Shown: positions 2,671-40,114 of the stretch, one piece after another | Layout of the letters: each line of letters starts with the position of its first letter | How positions within the stretch are numbered: the stretch's first letter is position 1 | Virus record (IMG/VR): IMGVR_UViG_3300042509_001825 | Coordinates: 1 to 41,603 of that record | Source: a virus | DNA length: 41,603 nucleotides | Direction: 5' to 3' (one strand) | The notes under the pieces: generated by a model | Told to the model about the DNA's origin: nothing | What the model saw: the letters and a program-made list of their open reading frames with translations, nothing else | Databases searched by the model: none | Position numbers and translations under genes: made by a program

Positions 2671-3356
2671 GCCGTCGCGCCCTCTTCGTCGAACGTCGGC
2701 ACGTCATGCAGCCACGGCGCCTCGGCGTCCGAAAGCTGCGGCATGTCGCCGGTGTCGACCAGCGCCCGATCAATGTCCCGCGCCTTCACCGCAAGGCCTG
2801 CGCGTGCAGCGTCCAGCGTGGCATGCGGGCCGACAGCAGCCACCGCCATGCCGGGCGGGACGGCCTGCTCGGCAATGCCTCGGAACTGCCCGCCTGTCGC
2901 GGTCTGGTCGTCGGTCTTCAGCGCCTCGCGGTACATGACGCGCTGCACCACGCACAGCCGTTCCCCGGCCTGGTCGCGCTCGCGCAGCCGGTGCGCCCAG
3001 TGCTTCGGACCCACATCGCGGCGAAGGTCGCGCAGCCTGGCGATCTCGCGGCGCACCCGCTCCGGGTTGGCCCGCGGCGCCTCCAGCGCGAGCGGCGCAG
3101 CCTCGGGCCTGCGGCGGCACAGCTCGCGGAACTGCAGCACGTCGGGCGGCTTGCCGGCGGGCAGGTTCTCGAGCGCGTGGCGGATGGCCTGCGGGTTGGC
3201 GATCAGCCAGCCGTGCAGCTCGCGGCGCCAGTCGGCCTTGACCTCGGCCATGTCGAGGCCCTCCCAGCGGCCGAGAAAGTCCCGCCCGTACACCAGCGTG
3301 CACTTCGAGAAAATCAGGTCGACAAGGGCGTCAGCCGATGCGTTTGATGAGTCCAT
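2667..3356 (-). CDS. Replication protein P-like (helicase loader candidate)
   Basis: 229 residues. The N-terminal 70 residues carry the pattern of lambda P-type proteins: a YGRDFLGRW segment, KADWRRELHGWL, and a PPDVLQFRELCRR block. Known relatives recruit the host DnaB helicase to the phage origin. The middle part is an Arg-rich helix and the C-terminus is acidic and less conserved. The gene overlaps the DUF1376 replication protein by 26 bases, giving the O-P order of lambdoid phages. I do not see a Walker motif, so it is not itself a helicase. Loader function is inferred from pattern and position. Confidence 0.75.
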   Translation of the reverse strand: MDSSNASADALVDLIFSKCTLVYGRDFLGRWEGLDMAEVKADWRRELHGWLIANPQAIRHALENLPAGKPPDVLQFRELCRRRPEAAPLALEAPRANPERVRREIARLRDLRRDVGPKHWAHRLRERDQAGERLCVVQRVMYREALKTDDQTATGGQFRGIAEQAVPPGMAVAAVGPHATLDAARAGLAVKARDIDRALVDTGDMPQLSDAEAPWLHDVPTFDEEGATA

Positions 3357-6525: not shown

Positions 6526-6728
6526 GCGGCGCCCTGCTGCTCTACGTTCAGCGCCGCGCCCCAGCACTCGGGGTCGGCTTTGAGCTTGCCGCCCGTCAGC
6601 CGCTCGAGCTGAATCTGGCGCAGCGCGGGCACCTCGTCCCATGCACAAACAGTGCTCTGGTGCATCTTCAGCGCTGCCGCAAGCGCCACCTGCGTGCCGA
6701 AATGCTCCACGGCTTGGTCTTTGGTCAT
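6522..6728 (-). CDS. Cro-like (YdaS-type) repressor
   Basis: 68 residues starting MTKDQAVEHFGTQVALAAAL. This is the YdaS/Cro pattern in which the HTH comprises AVEHFGTQVALAAALKM and HQSTVCAWDEVPALRQ, followed by LERLTGGKLKADPECWG. Small Cro-type proteins bind the divergent operator and shut down repressor synthesis. The gene is divergent from the repressor gene with 71 bases between the starts, the classical immunity-switch layout. It is the first gene of the leftward early operon and its stop overlaps the GTG of the LuxR-type gene. Confidence 0.85.
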   Translation of the reverse strand: MTKDQAVEHFGTQVALAAALKMHQSTVCAWDEVPALRQIQLERLTGGKLKADPECWGAALNVEQQGAA

Positions 6729-6744
6729 GGCCGCATCATGGCAT

Positions 6745-6781
6745 AACCCATATGGGTTTGTCCATTGATAGCCCCTATCAA
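6745..6781. promoter_or_regulatory. Immunity operator region between cro and repressor
   Basis: Three overlapping or adjacent dyads occupy this stretch. They are the perfect palindrome AACCCATATGGGTT at 6745-6758, the operator-like ATGGGTTTGTCCAT at 6752-6765, and the perfect inverted repeat TTGATAG-CCC-CTATCAA at 6765-6781. The second matches the ATGGG-N4-CCCAT boxes near 7160-7200 with one mismatch. The region must hold the divergent promoters for cro and the repressor. I could not pick convincing -35/-10 pairs for either. A Shine-Dalgarno (AGGGAGG, 6781-6787) for the repressor follows directly. Confidence 0.7.
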
Positions 6782-7486: not shown

Positions 7487-8065
7487 ATGAACCACCCCCT
7501 CGCCCTCCGCCTCGCCGCTGTCGCATCGACAGTGCCGCCCCCGGCAATCGCGCACGACCGCGCCGATCCTGCGCCGGTTGTTGCGCTGCCGACGCCGAAC
7601 CCTGCCCGGGACACCCTGCGCCGCATGCGCGCCACTGCCGTGGACGATGCGCACCAGGCTATCGACTCGACCCGCCTTCTCGCTGCTGCCCGCGCTGCAT
7701 CGCAGGAAGACGGCGGCACCTGCTACCCGGTGTTTGCCGCAGAGCTTGGAATCCTGTTGACCGACTTGGCGATGGAGCTGAACCTGCTTCGCGGCCACGG
7801 TGCCTGCATCCCCGGTCCCGCCTCTCAGTTCCTGCGCGCCCCGCTTGGTGGCAGCGAGGCCGTGATCGAGTACAGCCACGACGAAGACTTCGGCCCGCTC
7901 GCTGAACGTGCGCTGATCAATGGCCGGTGGATCGAGGCCGACCAGTTCGCGCCCGAAGTGTTGGAGCAGTGGCACGACGCCATCCGCGCCGACATCGAGC
8001 AGCAGCGCCGGGACGATGCCGAGACGCATGCGGTGCGGCGGTATGAAGCGGCGAGGGGGCTGTGA
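7487..8065 (+). CDS. Hypothetical 192-residue early protein
   Basis: Starts with ATG at 7487, 15 bases after the previous stop, behind CGGAGCC. Residues 1-50 are Ala/Pro-rich and look disordered. The rest is predicted mostly helical, with YPVFAAELGILLTDLAMELN and a C-terminal charged helix (EVLEQWHDAIRADIEQQRRDD). No catalytic motif or known domain is visible. The stop overlaps the ATG of the next small membrane-protein gene by one base. Confidence 0.75.
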   Translation: MNHPLALRLAAVASTVPPPAIAHDRADPAPVVALPTPNPARDTLRRMRATAVDDAHQAIDSTRLLAAARAASQEDGGTCYPVFAAELGILLTDLAMELNLLRGHGACIPGPASQFLRAPLGGSEAVIEYSHDEDFGPLAERALINGRWIEADQFAPEVLEQWHDAIRADIEQQRRDDAETHAVRRYEAARGL

Positions 8066-8193
8066 TGCCTGACCTCGACCGCGAGCCCGGCCCGCAGCAC
8101 AGCGAGTGCCCCGAGTCCCACTGGCGCATCACCGACCTGCTGATGTCCATCGGCTTGGTGGTGGCCTGCATCTTCTTTGCCCTTGGAGGCTGA
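8065..8193 (+). CDS. Small single-pass membrane protein (42 residues)
   Basis: A short reading frame from the ATG at 8065 (TGATG overlap with the previous stop) to the TGA at 8191. The first 20 residues are polar and include PQHSECPESHWR; residues 22-41 are a hydrophobic segment (TDLLMSIGLVVACIFFALGG) that would span the membrane once. The next gene starts two bases after its stop. Coupling on both sides and a clean transmembrane segment support it as real. Role unknown; early-expressed small membrane proteins in temperate phages are often exclusion or host-interaction factors. Confidence 0.6.
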   Translation: MPDLDREPGPQHSECPESHWRITDLLMSIGLVVACIFFALGG

Positions 8194-8194
8194 C

Positions 8195-8383
8195 ATGAGC
8201 GAATGGGCCGACCAGTACCTGACGCTGATCGACGACTGCGAACAGCGCGAAGGGCGCCTGAGCGATTGGCAGCGCAGCTTTCTCGACAGCCTGCGCCGAC
8301 AGATCGAGGCCGGCAATGTGCCGACACAGAAGCAGATCGACAAGCTGGACGAGGCCTGGGAGCAGGCCACCGCAAGAGGATGA
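8195..8383 (+). CDS. Hypothetical 62-residue helical protein
   Basis: Starts with ATG at 8195 behind the Shine-Dalgarno TTGGAGGC (8184-8191). Charged and helical throughout: WADQYLTLIDDCEQREGRLS, then DWQRSFLDSLRRQIEAGN and QKQIDKLDEAWEQATA. This resembles small phage helical proteins found near recombination genes, without assigned function. It ends two bases before the start of the next gene. Confidence 0.7.
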   Translation: MSEWADQYLTLIDDCEQREGRLSDWQRSFLDSLRRQIEAGNVPTQKQIDKLDEAWEQATARG

Positions 8384-8385
8384 CC

Positions 8386-8679
8386 ATGAGCACCACACAC
8401 CAGACCTACCTCGCCGGCACTGCTGCCGACGAAGCCGTGCCTGCGCCGTACCAGGGACTGCACCGCATCCCGGTGCTCGAGCACACGAACAGCGCCGTCG
8501 CCGCGATGGACGCCGAAGACGCGCGCCCCATGCTCGGCCGCGACTACGCCCAGGGCCACGCGCACGGGTATATCGACGGGCTGCGGGCCTGTGCGCAGCG
8601 GCCCTCGCGCGGCGTGCTGTTCGTCGTGGGCGTGATGGTCGGTGCGGCCTGCGCGCTGCTGTGGACGGTGTTCGCATGA
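8386..8679 (+). CDS. Hypothetical protein with C-terminal membrane segment
   Basis: 97 residues from the ATG at 8386, 2 bases after the upstream stop. Residues 1-75 are soluble, with a RDYAQGHAHGYIDGLRAC motif that looks like a small conserved phage domain. Residues 77-97 (LFVVGVMVGAACALLWTVFA) form one transmembrane helix at the very C-terminus, so the protein is probably tail-anchored with the soluble part in the cytoplasm. Function unknown. Confidence 0.7.
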   Translation: MSTTHQTYLAGTAADEAVPAPYQGLHRIPVLEHTNSAVAAMDAEDARPMLGRDYAQGHAHGYIDGLRACAQRPSRGVLFVVGVMVGAACALLWTVFA

Positions 8680-8882
8680 CCGCCGCCACCATCACCCGCC
8701 CCGCCCTGGGCCTCTGGCGCGCGGCGCGCATCGCCTGGCTGCGCTACCGGGTGCGGGAGGCGCGCCGGGATGCCGCCTACGAGGCCACCAGCCTCTGGCC
8801 GCGCGAGGACCAGATCCGGGCCTGGCGCAAGGATGCCGCGGCCTGGGAGTGCGAGATCCTGGCGCTCGGGGGTGAGCTGTGA
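8676..8882 (+). CDS. Hypothetical basic 68-residue protein
   Basis: From the ATG at 8676, overlapping the previous stop as ATGA; its own stop overlaps the GTG of the exonuclease gene. The sequence is Arg- and Trp-rich (LGLWRAARIAWLRYRVREAR) with a second Trp-containing helix (DQIRAWRKDAAAWECEIL). Small, basic and coupled to the exonuclease, it may assist recombination, but no domain is recognised. Confidence 0.65.
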   Translation: MTAATITRPALGLWRAARIAWLRYRVREARRDAAYEATSLWPREDQIRAWRKDAAAWECEILALGGEL

Positions 8883-9763
8883 ACGCGCCCGACCGCGCCC
8901 TGATGGGTGTCATCCACGACCTGCCGAACGAGGCCTATCACGCAGGCCCCGGCGTGTCGAACAGCGTGCTGTCGGCCATGGCCCGCAGCCCGGCGCACTG
9001 CTGGGCGCAGCACCTGGACCCGAACCGGCCGCCCAGTACAGTGCGGGCCGGGCAGCTGGAGGGCACGCTGGCGCACTGCGCCACGCTCGAGCCTGCCGAG
9101 TTTCCGCGGCGCTACGTCACGATCCCGGCGAACGCGCCGCGCCGGCCGACCGATGCGCAGTGGAACGCGAAGAAGCCCAGCCCGGACAGCCTGGAGGCCA
9201 TGGACTGGTGGCGCGACTTCACGGCCCGGGTCGGCGCCGCTGAAGTGGTGTCGGCCGAACTGGTGCGCGTCGCCCAGGCCCAGGCCGCGAGCGTGCGCCG
9301 GCTGCCGCAGATCGCCGAGCTGCTGTCGCGCGGGCATCCCGAGGTGTCGGCCTACTGGATCGACGACGCGACCGGCCTGCTCTGCCGCTGCCGGCCCGAC
9401 TGGGTGCACCCGGTCAACGACGACAGCGTGATCCTGCTCGACCTGAAGACCTACAGCGACGCGAGCCCCAACGAGTTCGCGCGCCAAGTGGCCCGCAAGG
9501 GCTACCACCGGCAGGCCGCTTGGTACTCCGACGGGTACGAACGCGCGAGCGGGAAGAAGGTGCTCGGCTTCGTGTTCGTGGCCGTCGAGACAGAGCACCC
9601 GTTCGCGGCCTGCGCTCACATGCTGGACGACCCGGGGCTCGACAAGGGCCGCGAGTTGAACCGGGCGCTGCTGGACCGCTTCGCCGAGTGCCAGCGCACG
9701 AACTCCTGGCCGGCATACGGCGACGACATCCAGCTCATCACCCTGCCGCGCTGGGCGGCTTGA
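8879..9763 (+). CDS. RecE-like / DUF3799 5'-3' exonuclease (PD-(D/E)XK)
   Basis: 294 residues from GTG at 8879. The sequence matches the putative exonuclease family often paired with RecT. An N-terminal YHAGPGVSNSVLSAMARSP segment is followed by the active-site elements: CRCRPDWV (Asp174), VILLDLKTYSDASP (Asp188, Lys190) and YHRQAAWYSDGY, i.e. a PD-(D/E)XK nuclease core. Such enzymes degrade the 5' strand of double-stranded ends to give 3' tails for the annealing protein. It is followed 30 bases later by RecT. Together they form the recombination module, probably used for replication, concatemer formation and exchange with other prophages. Confidence 0.9.
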   Translation: MNAPDRALMGVIHDLPNEAYHAGPGVSNSVLSAMARSPAHCWAQHLDPNRPPSTVRAGQLEGTLAHCATLEPAEFPRRYVTIPANAPRRPTDAQWNAKKPSPDSLEAMDWWRDFTARVGAAEVVSAELVRVAQAQAASVRRLPQIAELLSRGHPEVSAYWIDDATGLLCRCRPDWVHPVNDDSVILLDLKTYSDASPNEFARQVARKGYHRQAAWYSDGYERASGKKVLGFVFVAVETEHPFAACAHMLDDPGLDKGRELNRALLDRFAECQRTNSWPAYGDDIQLITLPRWAA

Positions 9764-26616: not shown

Positions 26617-26623
26617 GAGGTGC

Positions 26624-26649
26624 ATGTTAGGGACAGCCCTCCCTAGCAT
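26624..26649. promoter_or_regulatory. Divergent pair of late motifs
   Basis: Two copies face away from each other. The minus-strand variant GTCCCTAACAT (26634-26624) stands 7 bases before the tail-gene start at 26616. The plus-strand exact copy CTCCCTAGCAT (26639-26649) points to the HNH gene. Together they form an imperfect inverted repeat, CATGYTAGGGA and TCCCTAGCATG around CAGCCC. The arrangement suggests the HNH gene carries or captured its own copy of the phage late signal. Bases 26650-26707 hold no gene and form its leader. Confidence 0.6.
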
Positions 26650-26707
26650 GCGGTAGGCGGATAGGGATGCAACCCGAAGAGCCTTCAGCAAGCCTGCCGC
26701 CTTCGTC

Positions 26708-31304: not shown

Positions 31305-31312
31305 GCTTGCGC

Positions 31313-31323
31313 ATGCTAGGGAG
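31313..31323 (-). promoter_or_regulatory. Late motif copy 8 bases before the tail terminator start
   Basis: Coding-strand CTCCCTAGCAT in the 39-base gap between the gp10-like stop (31344) and the ATG at 31304. The distance to the ATG is exactly 8 bases, and GCGCAAGC between them offers no ribosome-binding site. Same geometry as at 23926 and 37802. Confidence 0.62.
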
Positions 31324-35472: not shown

Positions 35473-36414
35473 TCAGGTGGCGAGGTTCTCGCGCTCCCAC
35501 CGCTCGCGCTCGGCCCGCATCTTCACCTTAAGCCCGTCCGTCAGGATCGGCTTGCCCGCGGCGTCGAGCAGGCAGCTGGTGACCGCACAGAAGCAGTTGT
35601 ATCGGTTCCCGTCCCGCTCGTAGAAGGCCCGCACCTCGTCGCGGGTGTAGACCTTCCCGCTGCGCGAGGCGTGCCAGGGCCGCGTGGTCGGCTTGAAGGC
35701 CGAGGTCCACAGCAGGCCGGTGCGGATGCCCAGGTCCTCCTCGGCCGCCTCGTCCTCCGCGATGCGCGCCCCGCGCAGCGTGTCGGTGATATCGGTCTGC
35801 GCGAACTGCCGGGCCTTGCTCCTGCTGACCTCCAGCGCGTCGGCGATCTCGGTCACCACCGCCTTGGGGTTCTTTCCGTCCACCACCGCGCGGCCGATGA
35901 TCTGCGACAGCCGGGTGCGGATCTCGGCCGTCTGCCCGGTCCAGTGCTCGTAGCTCTTGAGCTGGGCGAAGGCCAGGCGGTTGCGGTAGGGCGCGGAGTA
36001 CAGCACCGTCTCCAGGCTGCGGGCGCCGGCATAGGCGGCCGACAGGTTCGTGAGGTTCGCCGCACTCTGCGCCAGGCCGAGCTGCGAGGCCTCGGCGACG
36101 TAGCGGGACCACCACAGCTGGTTCGCGGGGTCGCGCCCGCTGGCCACCCAGCGCTCCAGGGCGGCCAGCAGCTCCGCGGCCAGGGCGCCCATCTGCTCGG
36201 GCGTCAGGCCGTAGGCCACGCGGGGCAGCACCACGTCATTGGCCGTCATCTCGCCCACGGCGTAGGACGGCACCCGCGCAAAGATCGCGAGTATTTCGGC
36301 CTGCAGCCCGGCGAAGCGGCGGTTTATCTCCGCCAGCGCCCGGCGCAGGATGCCGGCGGTCCCGGTGCGATCCCCGGCGTTTCCGGGGATCATCGGGTTG
36401 CGTGGGCGGGTCAC
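35473..36414 (-). CDS. Mu gpF-like minor head protein
   Basis: 313 residues from the GTG at 36414. The C-terminal half shows the Mu-F family pattern: ARQFAQTDITDTLRGARIAE, RTGLLWTSAFKPTTRPWHAS, RSGKVYTRDEVRAFYERDG, NRYNCFCAVTSCLLDAAGK, with the conserved NCxC and RPWHA elements. The N-terminal half is helical (LQAEILAIFARVPSYAVGEM). Such proteins (SPP1 gp7-like) are carried in the head and are associated with the portal during DNA delivery. The stop-start overlap with the portal gene is GTGA. Confidence 0.88.
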   Translation of the reverse strand: MTRPRNPMIPGNAGDRTGTAGILRRALAEINRRFAGLQAEILAIFARVPSYAVGEMTANDVVLPRVAYGLTPEQMGALAAELLAALERWVASGRDPANQLWWSRYVAEASQLGLAQSAANLTNLSAAYAGARSLETVLYSAPYRNRLAFAQLKSYEHWTGQTAEIRTRLSQIIGRAVVDGKNPKAVVTEIADALEVSRSKARQFAQTDITDTLRGARIAEDEAAEEDLGIRTGLLWTSAFKPTTRPWHASRSGKVYTRDEVRAFYERDGNRYNCFCAVTSCLLDAAGKPILTDGLKVKMRAERERWERENLAT

Positions 36415-37793
36415 ACCGCGGAGAGCCTGGGCGGCGCTGCTGTCGGCTCGCCACCGGCCGCGGGCTCGCCCTCTGCAGGCATGCCGTCATCGGCGCGCGG
36501 CTCGAAGTTCAGGACCCGGCGCAGCTCGTTGGCGTCGAACAGGGGCTCGGCGAGCCCCGACTGGAAGGCCTTCTGCATGGCCGAGGTCATCTTGTCGAGC
36601 AGCCCCGCCTTAGCATCGTCGCCCGGCGTGTCCAGCGGCGGCCACTCGACCACGAACTCGCCCGGAGCGATCAGGCCCGCGGCCTGCAGCCGGCGCACGA
36701 GTTGCTCCAGCATCGGCGTCAACTCGTTGACCTGCCGCGACTTGCACCGCGCCACCATGTCGGCCTGGTCCTGATCGCTGGCGAGCCGGCCTGTCTGCGC
36801 GCCGAAGAGGATCGTCATCGGGATCTGCACCGACGCCGAGAAGATGTTGGCCGCCACTTCGAACGCCGGGCCCGGGTCGGTCATCGTCGTCTGCAGCGTG
36901 CTCGCGGTCGCGCCCTGCGTCACGATGGCCGAGTCGATGTTGCGGTTCAGGTTGTCGACCTGCTCGCCGATGACCTCGCGCACCGAGCGCGTGCCGGCGC
37001 TGCCGTCGGGGTTCTGGGTGATGACCTGGGGCGATGCCTCGGGGGCGAAGTTGATCGTCACCGCCCGCGCGCTGTTCTTCAGGAAGCCCTCGGCGCTGCC
37101 GCCGCTGATCTTCTCCAAGTCGGTCAGCGCATTGAACCCGGCCTTCAGCAGCGGCACGCCGTCGAACAGGTCGCCGACACTGCCTTCGGCCAGGATCTGC
37201 ACGCGGGAGGGGTGCACATCGACCCACTGATCCGGGCGGCCCTGGGTGTCCGACGTTTGCGGCGGGCGCATGCGGTACTGGTACATCGTCGGGGCGCCGA
37301 AGTCCGGGCTGTTGGTGTCGCTGTTCCACGCGACCACCTTGAGCTGGTTCTCGTAGACCGGCACCAGGTCGACCAGCTTCTGGCCGCGCACCAGGGGCTC
37401 GCGCAGGGCCAGGCCGTCGGCGACGCGGTAGATCAGGCCCGCGTACCGGCCGATCAGGTTCCTGCGGTCGAAGTCGCGCAGCTTCTGCCAGCCGTTGATG
37501 CTGGTCAGCAGGGCCTTGACGCTCTCTTCCCAGGGTGTCGCCTCGTCCTGGCCCGGCGCCTTGATCCGGGGCCGCTCCTGCCAGCACTTGTCGACGATGC
37601 GGTGCACGGCGCCGTGGCCTGCCCCGCCGCGCTCGTAGGCGGTCAGGAAATGGTCGAAGGTCAGGTCGGTCCTATATCCAAACTGCCTCCAGGCGTCCGG
37701 CCGCTTGGCGTCAAGCGAGCCGAAGAAGCCGAGCAGGGATTCGCGGGCGCGGCTGATCTCCAGGTCGGAGGTGTTGACGGTGAGGGGGCGCAT
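36411..37793 (-). CDS. Portal protein (DUF1073-type)
   Basis: 460 residues from the ATG at 37793; the frame is open further upstream but that part overlaps the structured non-coding region and is not protein-like. The DUF1073 portal pattern is clear: LTFDHFLTAYERGGAGHGAV, RIVDKCWQERPRIKA, LRDFDRRNLIGRYAGLIYRV, VREVIGEQVDNLNRNIDSAI, IPMTILFGAQTGRLASDQDQ. It forms the dodecameric DNA channel at one head vertex and docks the terminase. The late motif ends exactly 8 bases before the ATG and there is no Shine-Dalgarno. Confidence 0.9.
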   Translation of the reverse strand: MRPLTVNTSDLEISRARESLLGFFGSLDAKRPDAWRQFGYRTDLTFDHFLTAYERGGAGHGAVHRIVDKCWQERPRIKAPGQDEATPWEESVKALLTSINGWQKLRDFDRRNLIGRYAGLIYRVADGLALREPLVRGQKLVDLVPVYENQLKVVAWNSDTNSPDFGAPTMYQYRMRPPQTSDTQGRPDQWVDVHPSRVQILAEGSVGDLFDGVPLLKAGFNALTDLEKISGGSAEGFLKNSARAVTINFAPEASPQVITQNPDGSAGTRSVREVIGEQVDNLNRNIDSAIVTQGATASTLQTTMTDPGPAFEVAANIFSASVQIPMTILFGAQTGRLASDQDQADMVARCKSRQVNELTPMLEQLVRRLQAAGLIAPGEFVVEWPPLDTPGDDAKAGLLDKMTSAMQKAFQSGLAEPLFDANELRRVLNFEPRADDGMPAEGEPAAGGEPTAAPPRLSAV

Positions 37794-37801
37794 GGGTGGG
37801 C

Positions 37802-37812
37802 ATGCTAGGGAG
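37802..37812 (-). promoter_or_regulatory. Late motif copy 8 bases before the portal start
   Basis: Coding-strand CTCCCTAGCAT between the terminal stem of the structured region and the portal ATG. The spacer is CATG-context CCCACCC with no ribosome site. Bases 37801-37812 repeat 38215-38226, so identical 12-base copies, followed by GCG after one differing base, bracket the structured region. Confidence 0.62.
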
Positions 37813-37813
37813 G

Positions 37814-38213
37814 GCGGAAAGCGAGCGCGCACGGCAGGAGCCCGAGGGGTGATGCCCCTCGGAATTCCGGCTGTCAGCTCCTGCGGCTGGGCCGGACTCG
37901 CTCGCGCGGGTATTTCGGTTTCCACGGCGCCCGTCTCGTGGGCCTGACGTTCTCACCTTGCTGCCGTGTTCCTGCGGTCCCATACCAAGGTCCGCGCGCC
38001 GGGCTCCTGCTACAGCGCTCGCCTGTTCTGCGGTGGGGCCAGCTAGCGCCCGCTTCACGACTTGCCACGCAGTTCGCCGCTCTGGGCTGCCGGAATGGAA
38101 AAGCCCTCAAGGCCTTGCCGTTCCGTGATGCGGACACGTCCCCGTACAGGGCAAACGGCAAGAGCTTGAGGGCTCTTGCTCATTGTCGCCAAAGTCCGCA
38201 TCAATGGCAACGG
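37814..38213 (-). ncRNA. Candidate structured phage RNA between large terminase and portal genes
   Basis: About 400 bases without a convincing gene. Helix 1 pairs 38126-38135 with 38194-38203 (10 bp, perfect). Helix 2 pairs 38101-38122 with 38154-38175 (two 9-bp blocks, a 2x2 loop, plus flanking A-T pairs). The two interlock, so they form a pseudoknot. An alternative hairpin uses 38158-38165 with 38172-38179 (8 bp). A CACGGC/GCCGTG helix lies at 37923-37928/37963-37968. The 3' end is a three-tier stem: 37821-37827/37899-37905, 37834-37841/37877-37884, 37842-37849/37855-37862, followed by TTTCC. Late motifs start it (38216-38226) and follow it (37802-37812). Possible roles: packaging RNA, regulatory leader, or packaging/cos DNA. 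I recognise no known family. Confidence 0.5.
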
Positions 38214-38215
38214 CC

Positions 38216-38226
38216 ATGCTAGGGAG
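38216..38226 (-). promoter_or_regulatory. Late motif copy at the head of the structured region
   Basis: Coding-strand CTCCCTAGCAT, 24 bases after the large terminase stop. Nothing protein-coding follows for over 400 bases, so if the motif is a promoter its first product is the structured RNA, beginning near 38209. A 36-codon frame from the ATG inside the motif exists but runs through both helices and looks unlike a protein. Confidence 0.55.
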
Positions 38227-38250: not shown

Positions 38251-39669
38251 TCAGCCGAACACCCCCGCGGTCGCCCCGATCAGCCCATTAAAGGCCCGCG
38301 CCGCCCCGTCCACCTGGTCGTCATGCAGCCCGTTCGGGAAGGTGCGCAGCTCGTCGGTGAAATCCTTGTTCCACGGCCCGCGCAGCATGACCACGTTCCC
38401 GGCGTTGACCTGCGAGGCCAGCGGCCGGGCCCGAACAACCTTGTCGCCGCTCTCCGTGCTGGTGTGCACCTGGTGCCCGGCCAGCATCGCCACCAGGGCC
38501 GCGGCCTGCCCCTTGCCGGCCTGCCCGGGGTCTTGCGGCAGGCTCTGCTTCACCCGCCCCATGCCGTCGCCCGAGGCGGTCGCCTTGATCAGCGCATCCC
38601 GCTTGTGCGTGCCGAGCTGCGCGCGCACGGCGTGGCCGATGATGTACCGGCCGTCAGCCAGGCGCCCGACCTTGACCCCCGCGGTGTAGTCCCCTGCCCC
38701 CTCGGTCGCGCCCAAGTCCCAGCCGCGGCACCACTGCACCGGGCCCGCGGGGATGACGTCGACGGTGGCGATCATGTCCGGCTGGAACTCTTCGCCCGAC
38801 GGTGGCGCGGGTCGCTGCTGGAACTGCCCGGCCACGGCATAGGCGCCCATCACCTTCTTGTCGCGGTCGACCACCTCGCGCGGGAACCGGGCCGGGAACA
38901 GCAGCTCGCCGGGCGTGGTTCGGGGGTCGGTGAAGCCGATGCACGTCGGCGGGCGCGGGGCTTCCCACTCCATCGGCAGGCAGAGGTGCTCGTAGCCCAG
39001 CTCCCGGGCGATGATCAGCCCGCTGATGTCCGACTCGTGCAGGCGCTGCATGCAGATGACGATGGCCGAGCGGTCGGGGTTGTTCAGCCGGGTCGGCAGC
39101 GTCTCGCTGAAGACCCGCTCGGCCTCGGTCAATGCGGCCTTGCTGTGGGCGTCCTCGACGCTGTGCGGGTCGTCCCAGGCCACGCGATCGCCGCGGCGGC
39201 CGGTCATCGCCCGTACGGCGCAGGACTGCCGCCAGCCGGTGCGCTCGTTCTCAAAGTAGGTCTTCTCGTTCTGGTCGCTGGTGAGCCCGAGCGGCCACAG
39301 GCTCTGGAACCACTCCGACTGGATCAGCCGGCGCATCCGCAGGTTGTCGCGGGTGGCCAGCGTGCTCTCGTGGCTGGCGGCGATGAAGCGCATGGACGGC
39401 AGGCCCCGCGGTCCCCACTCCCAGGCGGGCCACAGGACGCCGGTCATCATCGACTTCATCGTGCCCGGGGGAATGTTGATCAGGAGCCGGCTGATCTGGC
39501 CCTCGGTGACGGCCTGGAGGTGCTCGGCCATGGCGTCGATGTGCCAGCCGTGCACGTAGGGCTGGCCGGGCTCTAGCACGGCCCAGGCGCGGCGAATGAA
39601 GGTGACCAGGCTGCGCCGGCACGCTTCCCGCTCAATCGCCAGCCAGTCAGCCTCGGCGAGCTGCAGCAT
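38251..39669 (-). CDS. terL: Terminase large subunit
   Basis: 472 residues from the ATG at 39669, overlapping the small subunit by 23 bases. The ATPase domain shows LLINIPPGTMKSMMTGVLWP (Walker A-type, residues 63-82) and RGDRVAWDDPHSVEDA (Walker B Asp166-Asp167). The RNase H-like nuclease domain shows VQWCRGWDLGATEGAGDYTA and FPNGLHDDQVDGAARAF near the end, with Asp residues for metal binding. It cuts concatemers and drives DNA into the prohead through the portal. The family group would predict headful (pac) versus cos packaging; I cannot settle this. Confidence 0.94.
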   Translation of the reverse strand: MLQLAEADWLAIEREACRRSLVTFIRRAWAVLEPGQPYVHGWHIDAMAEHLQAVTEGQISRLLINIPPGTMKSMMTGVLWPAWEWGPRGLPSMRFIAASHESTLATRDNLRMRRLIQSEWFQSLWPLGLTSDQNEKTYFENERTGWRQSCAVRAMTGRRGDRVAWDDPHSVEDAHSKAALTEAERVFSETLPTRLNNPDRSAIVICMQRLHESDISGLIIARELGYEHLCLPMEWEAPRPPTCIGFTDPRTTPGELLFPARFPREVVDRDKKVMGAYAVAGQFQQRPAPPSGEEFQPDMIATVDVIPAGPVQWCRGWDLGATEGAGDYTAGVKVGRLADGRYIIGHAVRAQLGTHKRDALIKATASGDGMGRVKQSLPQDPGQAGKGQAAALVAMLAGHQVHTSTESGDKVVRARPLASQVNAGNVVMLRGPWNKDFTDELRTFPNGLHDDQVDGAARAFNGLIGATAGVFG

Positions 39670-40114
39670 CGCGCGCGGCCAGCAGTTCCTGCAGCGCCTG
39701 GTCGGACAGAAGGCCCGGGTCGATCGCGGCCGGGACGAGCGGGGCGCCACCCTTGCCGGTCAGCTCGCGCTTCTCCGGCGCATCCAGGCCCAGCAGCTTG
39801 GCCCGGCGCTCGCCGATCTTCAGCACGCGGTCGACAGCCGCGGCCTCGCCCTTCCGTGCCCGCGGCCACAGGCCCTGCAGCATGCCGTCCAGCCGCGACA
39901 GTTCCTCGCTGCGCAGCTCGTCGGCGTTCGCATTGACCTGCGCGCGGCACTCGGCGAGGCCAGCCTGCACCAGCCGGTGCGCCTGCGACTTCTTCAGGCC
40001 CAGCTGCGCGCCGATGGCCTCGTAACCCAGGCCAGCGCGGCGCAGTTCGAGCGCCTGGCGCTGGTGCTCGAGGCCCCGGGCTGCGCGGGCGGCGTTGGTG
40101 GTGTTGAGCGGCAT
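39647..40114 (-). CDS. terS: Terminase small subunit
   Basis: 155 residues from the ATG at 40114, one base after the stop of the upstream methyltransferase. An N-terminal HTH is visible (LEHQRQALELRRAGLGYEAI, GAQLGLKKSQAHRLVQ), followed by a helical oligomerisation part (ELSRLDGMLQGLWPRARKGE, AAAVDRVLKIGERRAKLLGL) and a C-terminal tail (SDQALQELLAARDAAARRG). This is the layout of phage small terminases, which bind the packaging site and hand DNA to TerL. Confidence 0.85.
   Translation of the reverse strand: MPLNTTNAARAARGLEHQRQALELRRAGLGYEAIGAQLGLKKSQAHRLVQAGLAECRAQVNANADELRSEELSRLDGMLQGLWPRARKGEAAAVDRVLKIGERRAKLLGLDAPEKRELTGKGGAPLVPAAIDPGLLSDQALQELLAARDAAARRG

Follow-up and report, generated by a model that had tools for sequence, protein, structure and literature searches.

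A conserved pseudoknotted 5′ RNA module joined to different 3′ modules in viral contigs, and its candidate RNA gene between the terminase and portal genes of a phage

ROOL and GOLLD are large structured RNAs of phages and prophages whose kissing loops are backed by covariation, and GOLLD is built from one conserved and one variable half (PMC12286853). The candidate RNA described here was read from a 41,603-nt stretch of phage DNA, the whole of which we call the window. It resembles ROOL and GOLLD in being a structured phage RNA with complementary loops, and GOLLD also in combining a conserved with a variable part, but it is about 400 nt long, has no tRNA nearby and gives no Rfam match, whereas ROOL and GOLLD measure over 600–800 nt and often lie near tRNAs. 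With the phi29 packaging RNA (pRNA) it shares a small size, two complementary loops and a frequent position beside packaging genes; unlike pRNA, it lacks an Rfam match, occurs with differing terminases and is absent from close relatives. Proteo-phage-1 RNA (RF03044) is likewise a small phage RNA and occurs in two of the carrier contigs (L236 and L158), but as a separate family at a separate locus, outside the unit studied here (in L236 at 6680–6761, directly after terL, and in L158 at 8990–9074). Betaproteobacteria-1 RNA (RF02932) forms the 3′ module of some members of the family, and the 3′ module of the window differs from it.

According to PHROGs assignments, this 41.6-kb phage record carries terL at 38251–39750 and portal at 36411–37793, both on the minus strand, the order on that strand being TerL, gap and portal, with the candidate RNA read from 38.2 to 37.8 kb. 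The preliminary description had pointed to a gap of 457 bases without a credible gene that begins and ends at copies of a repeated late motif. Both observations stand: the gap contains no credible ORF and none conserved in homologues, and the motif CTCCCTAGCATG is exact at either end (Table 1). A protein-coding gene was rejected, as homologues share no ORF, their loops carry single-base indels and their pairs are compensated. At up to two mismatches, the motif has 11 copies in the window compared with 3.0 expected. The copy on the terL side overlaps a −10-like hexamer, and the RNA is predicted to start near 38208–38210. Elsewhere, the form (T)CCCTAGCAT ends 6–9 nt upstream of many start codons (window 37801–37812 and 31312–31323; L002 6095 and 10506; L013 7494, 9822 and 13250); read as a −10 box, it would make late mRNAs leaderless or nearly so. 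At 26623–26650 of the window, two facing copies make a divergent pair.

Within the gap, a perfect 10-bp helix interlocked with a helix of about 20 bp had been proposed from the letters alone, together with a three-tier terminal stem followed by TTTCC, and we find all of these elements in place (Table 1). The longer helix, P2, comprises 21 pairs including G·U and a single C·C mismatch, and the 10-bp helix, H1, interlocks with it. The small hairpin P4 (CGTG/CACG), which overlaps the 3′ strand of H1, is uncertain and poorly supported, with 55.6% of its cells paired. The predicted fold of the 5′ module (38096–38209) reaches −56.3 kcal/mol with a z score of −5.8, a value attained by 0 of 200 shuffles, while the z score of all 457 nt of the gap is a moderate −2.3 and the three-tier 3′ stem is weaker than the 5′ module.

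Table 1. Predicted features of the RNA locus (positions in the window)
Feature	Position	Strand	Evidence and remarks
Late motif CTCCCTAGCATG with −10-like TAGCAT (38216–38221)	38215..38226	−	predicted promoter of the RNA; exact copy of the repeated motif; most homologues have the hexamer at a near-constant distance before H1
Whole RNA gene, about 390–400 nt (predicted)	37813..38209	−	promoter motifs at either end; in L002, L008 and L014, motif copies enclose a homologous unit of ~410 nt
P1 hairpin, GCCA 38205–38208 with TGGC 38188–38191, H1a in its loop	38188..38208	−	pairing in 92.9% of cells over 18 sequences
H1a, 5′ strand of the interlocking helix H1	38194..38203	−	perfect complement of 38126–38135; covaries
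P2, 5′ strand: outer GAGCCCTCAAG 38165–38175, inner 38154–38163	38154..38175	−	P2 99.7% paired, with double-sided changes in 10 of its 20 pairs
P3 hairpin	38140..38151	−	91.7% of cells paired
H1b, 3′ strand of H1, in the loop of P4	38126..38135	−	complements H1a
P2, 3′ strand (38113–38122 and 38101–38111), then TTTTCC	38101..38122	−	pairing and covariation; sequence inspection
3′ module, resembling type A	37813..38100	−	weak blast link to L137 (E 0.009); shared motifs by eye
Three-tier terminal stem, then TTTCC: 37897–37905/37816–37827, 37877–37884/37834–37841, 37842–37862	37816..37905	−	z −2.8 against shuffles (modest)
Second copy of the late motif	37801..37812	−	predicted portal promoter, ATG 8 nt past TAGCAT; same layout before portal in most relatives

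We collected relatives of TerL and portal from IMG/VR. Most close relatives have 30–47 nt between the two genes, and in these short gaps a TCCCTAGCAT-like motif usually precedes the portal ATG by a few bases. In L008, a homologous RNA occupies the terL–portal site, with a P2 identical to that of the window and a 9-bp H1 core of GGGTGGAGC/GCTCCACCC, compared with GATGCGGAC/GTCCGCATC in the window. L084, found through a pattern search, has the RNA in a region also holding repressor-like genes. Using a covariance model built from three sequences (R1), we located the RNA in L002, L003 and L014, and a second model (R2), made of P1, P2 and P3 with H1 left out, together with three further viral scans, brought the family to about 30 distinct members, all in viral contigs.

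We then analyzed 18 members, the window among them, aligned by R2 and chosen by R2 score (alignment A6). Under the structure P1+P2+P3+P4+H1, 90.7% of the cells are paired, double-sided changes affect 21 of the 40 pairs and 73 cells, and the covariation score is 0.306; 0 of 500 shuffles reach any of the five measures used, and shifting the partners by one column reduces pairing to about 50%. H1 alone contributes 30 doubly changed cells, compared with 9.4 in shuffles. In 29 distinct H1 sequences, the two strands match over 9.0 bp on average when they come from one member and over 2.99 when they come from different members, a contrast whose combined p-value is too favourable because some of these members were first noticed through H1. 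As judged from these comparisons, each phage has an H1 built almost entirely anew. P2 holds two near-fixed G·U pairs (18/18 and 15/17), which favours an RNA, and one read from the minus strand; its outer sequence served as a search handle, so that the conservation of this part is overstated. The compensatory changes that the preliminary description had suggested seeking in homologues are thus present in P2, H1 and P3, with the window as one of the 18 sequences, and by this covariation the predicted 5′ module is an RNA family of its own.

The family is known here solely from IMG/VR viral contigs. With the blastn searches and queries used, neither 50,697 cultured phage records nor plasmids yielded a match to the RNA. 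Looking for prophage copies, R2 gave nothing convincing in 399 Pseudomonadota genomes or in 349 genomes from the order to which one Betaproteobacteria-1 carrier belongs; the results of a loose pattern search were close to those of the reversed pattern used as control, and an exact pattern run against the genome collection returned unrelated hairpins only. We found no description of this RNA family in the literature searched, most subscription papers lying outside that search. The first impression that no known RNA family can be recognised holds in Rfam for the window and the 5′ module. Run on the window up to E 1, cmscan returned two matches, both sub-threshold and outside the gap, and none to phage pRNA; over the window and 16 carrier loci, Betaproteobacteria-1 (in type D, described below) and Proteo-phage-1 (elsewhere) were the only families above cut-off, and no ROOL or GOLLD model matched. 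The Betaproteobacteria-1 model left the window unmatched and reached its cut-off only in the 3′ parts of L225 and L228, and no tRNA or tmRNA was found in the window or 28 loci. We also compared the fold by eye with HDV-like ribozymes, which have the same strand order, and rejected this candidate, as it lacks a P4 as well as a constant joining segment that could hold a catalytic C.

The conserved 5′ module measures about 110 nt, extends roughly 20–40 nt beyond P2, and is joined to at least five kinds of 3′ module of about 270 nt. Type A comprises L002, L008, L141, L131, L204 and L223, with L137 and the window placed there by resemblance, and type B comprises L084, L119, L120, L152, L144, L158, L167 and L224, the division between A and B being our reading, as short matches, partly near their start, merge both in one blast cluster. 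Types C (L215, L237, L246), D (L225, L228) and E (L227, L240) follow, and in L226, L238 and L148 an ORF stands in place of the 3′ module. Near-identical 5′ modules of L204, L167 and L215 lead into types A, B and C, respectively, and L002 and L136 carry 3′ parts that are 99% identical behind different 5′ modules. Using RNAalifold, we obtained no convincing fold from all type A 3′ parts together, and a fold with double changes in 18 of 63 pairs from four type B parts. The window's 3′ part, weakly tied to type A, shows type-A-like features in a hairpin at 37974–37995 and a GGTGA at 37953–37957. The 3′ part of type D is Betaproteobacteria-1 RNA, scoring 63.8 bits in L225 and 66.2 bits in L228 at a cut-off of 49.4, and lies directly behind the 5′ module in both (L225 4620–4750; L228 1968–2097). 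In bacterial chromosomes, this RNA stands alone without the P2/H1 module, and the two chromosomal loci that we read have a −10-like site and a short 5′ hairpin where the module would be, suggesting that the 5′ module may be cap-like and the 3′ part the working part.

Location and orientation also vary. In L002, L003 and L014, the RNA is missing between terL and portal and lies about 4 kb downstream, ahead of a gene whose start resembles that of the window's phrog_760 gene. In L142 and L152, and in L120 by the same layout, the RNA lies between terL and portal in inverted orientation (both L142 genes lie on the minus strand, terL with its end at 3137 and portal with its start at 2732, and the RNA runs on the plus strand from 2774). 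L084, L119, L141, L144 and L131 carry it in other regions, and many copies are located in early or repressor regions. A −10-like hexamer precedes H1 at near-constant spacing in most members: the window group has TAGCAT, which is the late motif of the phage itself, L084 and L119 have TAGAAT, L141 has TACAAT, and L225 and L234 have a full promoter-like TTGACA-N17-TATACT. Given that these hexamers differ by phage, the promoter seems to follow the carrier. L002 and L014 additionally show an intrinsic-terminator-like hairpin just upstream of the promoter-like site of the RNA. Covariation, the fixed G·U pairs, the −10-like site and the copies inverted relative to terL and portal support the earlier proposal of a structured RNA forming its own predicted transcription unit. 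At the window's RNA site, L007 (2820–3890) and L011 (7487–7963) have protein ORFs, the terL–portal site being an insertion hot spot for accessory genes; in L002, an ORF between portal and the RNA (7493–9409) contains, by eye, an intein-like internal stretch (CFLPGTRV...IVASNCHC).

These comparisons show an RNA fold of the 5′ module (P1, P2, P3 and H1) that is spread over unrelated phages, changes place and direction, and joins in similar form to different 3′ modules. In our view, the stretch is probably a standalone gene whose product is a structured RNA of about 390–400 nt, accessory and acting in trans. It would be accessory, rather than a required part of packaging or a leader, because relatives either lack the RNA, carry it 4 kb downstream, or carry it inverted. 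According to this model, the RNA would be read on the minus strand from the promoter-like site towards portal, here presumably transcribed with the late genes. The 5′ module could then cap the extreme 5′ end as a compact and stable structure, protecting the RNA and/or holding a partner, while the 3′ module may be an exchangeable part acting on a target of the host or of a rival phage, a role comparable to that of a moron gene in that it would benefit the phage without being needed for building the particle.

A counter-point to a standalone RNA gene is the leader-like ORF directly after the module in L226, L238 and L148. It agrees with a regulatory leader or attenuator, in which the 5′ module and P2 with a U-rich tail would control read-through into the following RNA or ORF, and in some members P2 and a U-run are indeed terminator-like. 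We nevertheless regard such a leader as unlikely: the tail is U-poor in most members (e.g., UUGUUCG or UUCGUCG), what follows is mostly structured RNA, the unit points away from portal in L120, L142 and L152, and P2 and H1 are compatible together, with no conserved alternative fold seen. The narrower proposal of a cis-acting leader of portal fails on location, the RNA lying elsewhere in L002 and L014, and such a role is impossible where the copies between terL and portal are inverted. An antitermination RNA, which the preliminary description had also listed, is a possible remaining candidate.

Given that the covariation fits H1 pairing within one molecule or between molecules alike, we also keep, as a decidedly long shot, a self-assembling phage RNA whose H1 loops pair between its own copies only, the 5′ module being a chassis that would display interchangeable effector RNAs in multimeric form, on the packaging motor or else against targets of the host or rival phages. 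In this respect, the complementary H1 loops recall those of pRNA and the kissing loops of ROOL and GOLLD. Rather doubtful as well is the idea that the 5′ module of about 110 nt is functional alone, with the 3′ modules as unrelated RNA genes that neighbour it at a common insertion site. It would account for strong covariation being confined to the 5′ module, for the differing 3′ parts and for Betaproteobacteria-1 RNA also occurring alone; however, the 3′ parts have no apparent promoter of their own, in all cases seen they adjoin the 5′ module directly and share its direction, and the first bases past P2 (consensus like GTTTCC) are common to the types. In L131, L204 and L227, P2 is followed by 5–6 U that could end transcription, in which case the 5′ module would be an RNA of its own.

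The position between terL and portal had suggested a packaging RNA like that of phi29, in which H1a and H1b of different molecules would pair into a ring bridging terminase and portal. Two complementary loops rebuilt in each phage would suit such a ring, and the RNA adjoins terminase genes in unrelated carriers (the window, L008, the L120 group, L138, L246, L225, L228 and L137), about 7 of 17 gene contexts touching terminase genes in unrelated phages by our count. We consider this role improbable because sister phages package without the RNA, and as a required part it does not hold: relatives with similar TerL and portal have none (L013, 38.9 kb; L011; L012; and the 44-kb Bordetella phage IFTN8, where terL and portal overlap), with the reservation that IMG/VR records may be fragments and that the model may miss divergent copies. 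The carriers moreover have different TerL types (phrog_38, phrog_2 and phrog_9), many copies lie in early or repressor regions, and Rfam gives no hit to phage pRNA. The weakest proposal, a packaging site or cruciform acting as DNA, draws on the location between packaging genes and on P2 as a long inverted repeat, and is scarcely credible in view of the fixed G·U pairs in P2, the strand-specific promoter, the changing place and direction, and the sister phages lacking the RNA.

Taken together, a conserved pseudoknotted 5′ module and several structured RNAs seem to be parts exchanged in the manner of protein domains. This covariation-supported family adds to the few structured phage RNAs known and gives Betaproteobacteria-1 RNA a phage context. 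It also makes testable both the role of orphan phage RNAs and the idea that RNA modules may serve as interchangeable effectors.
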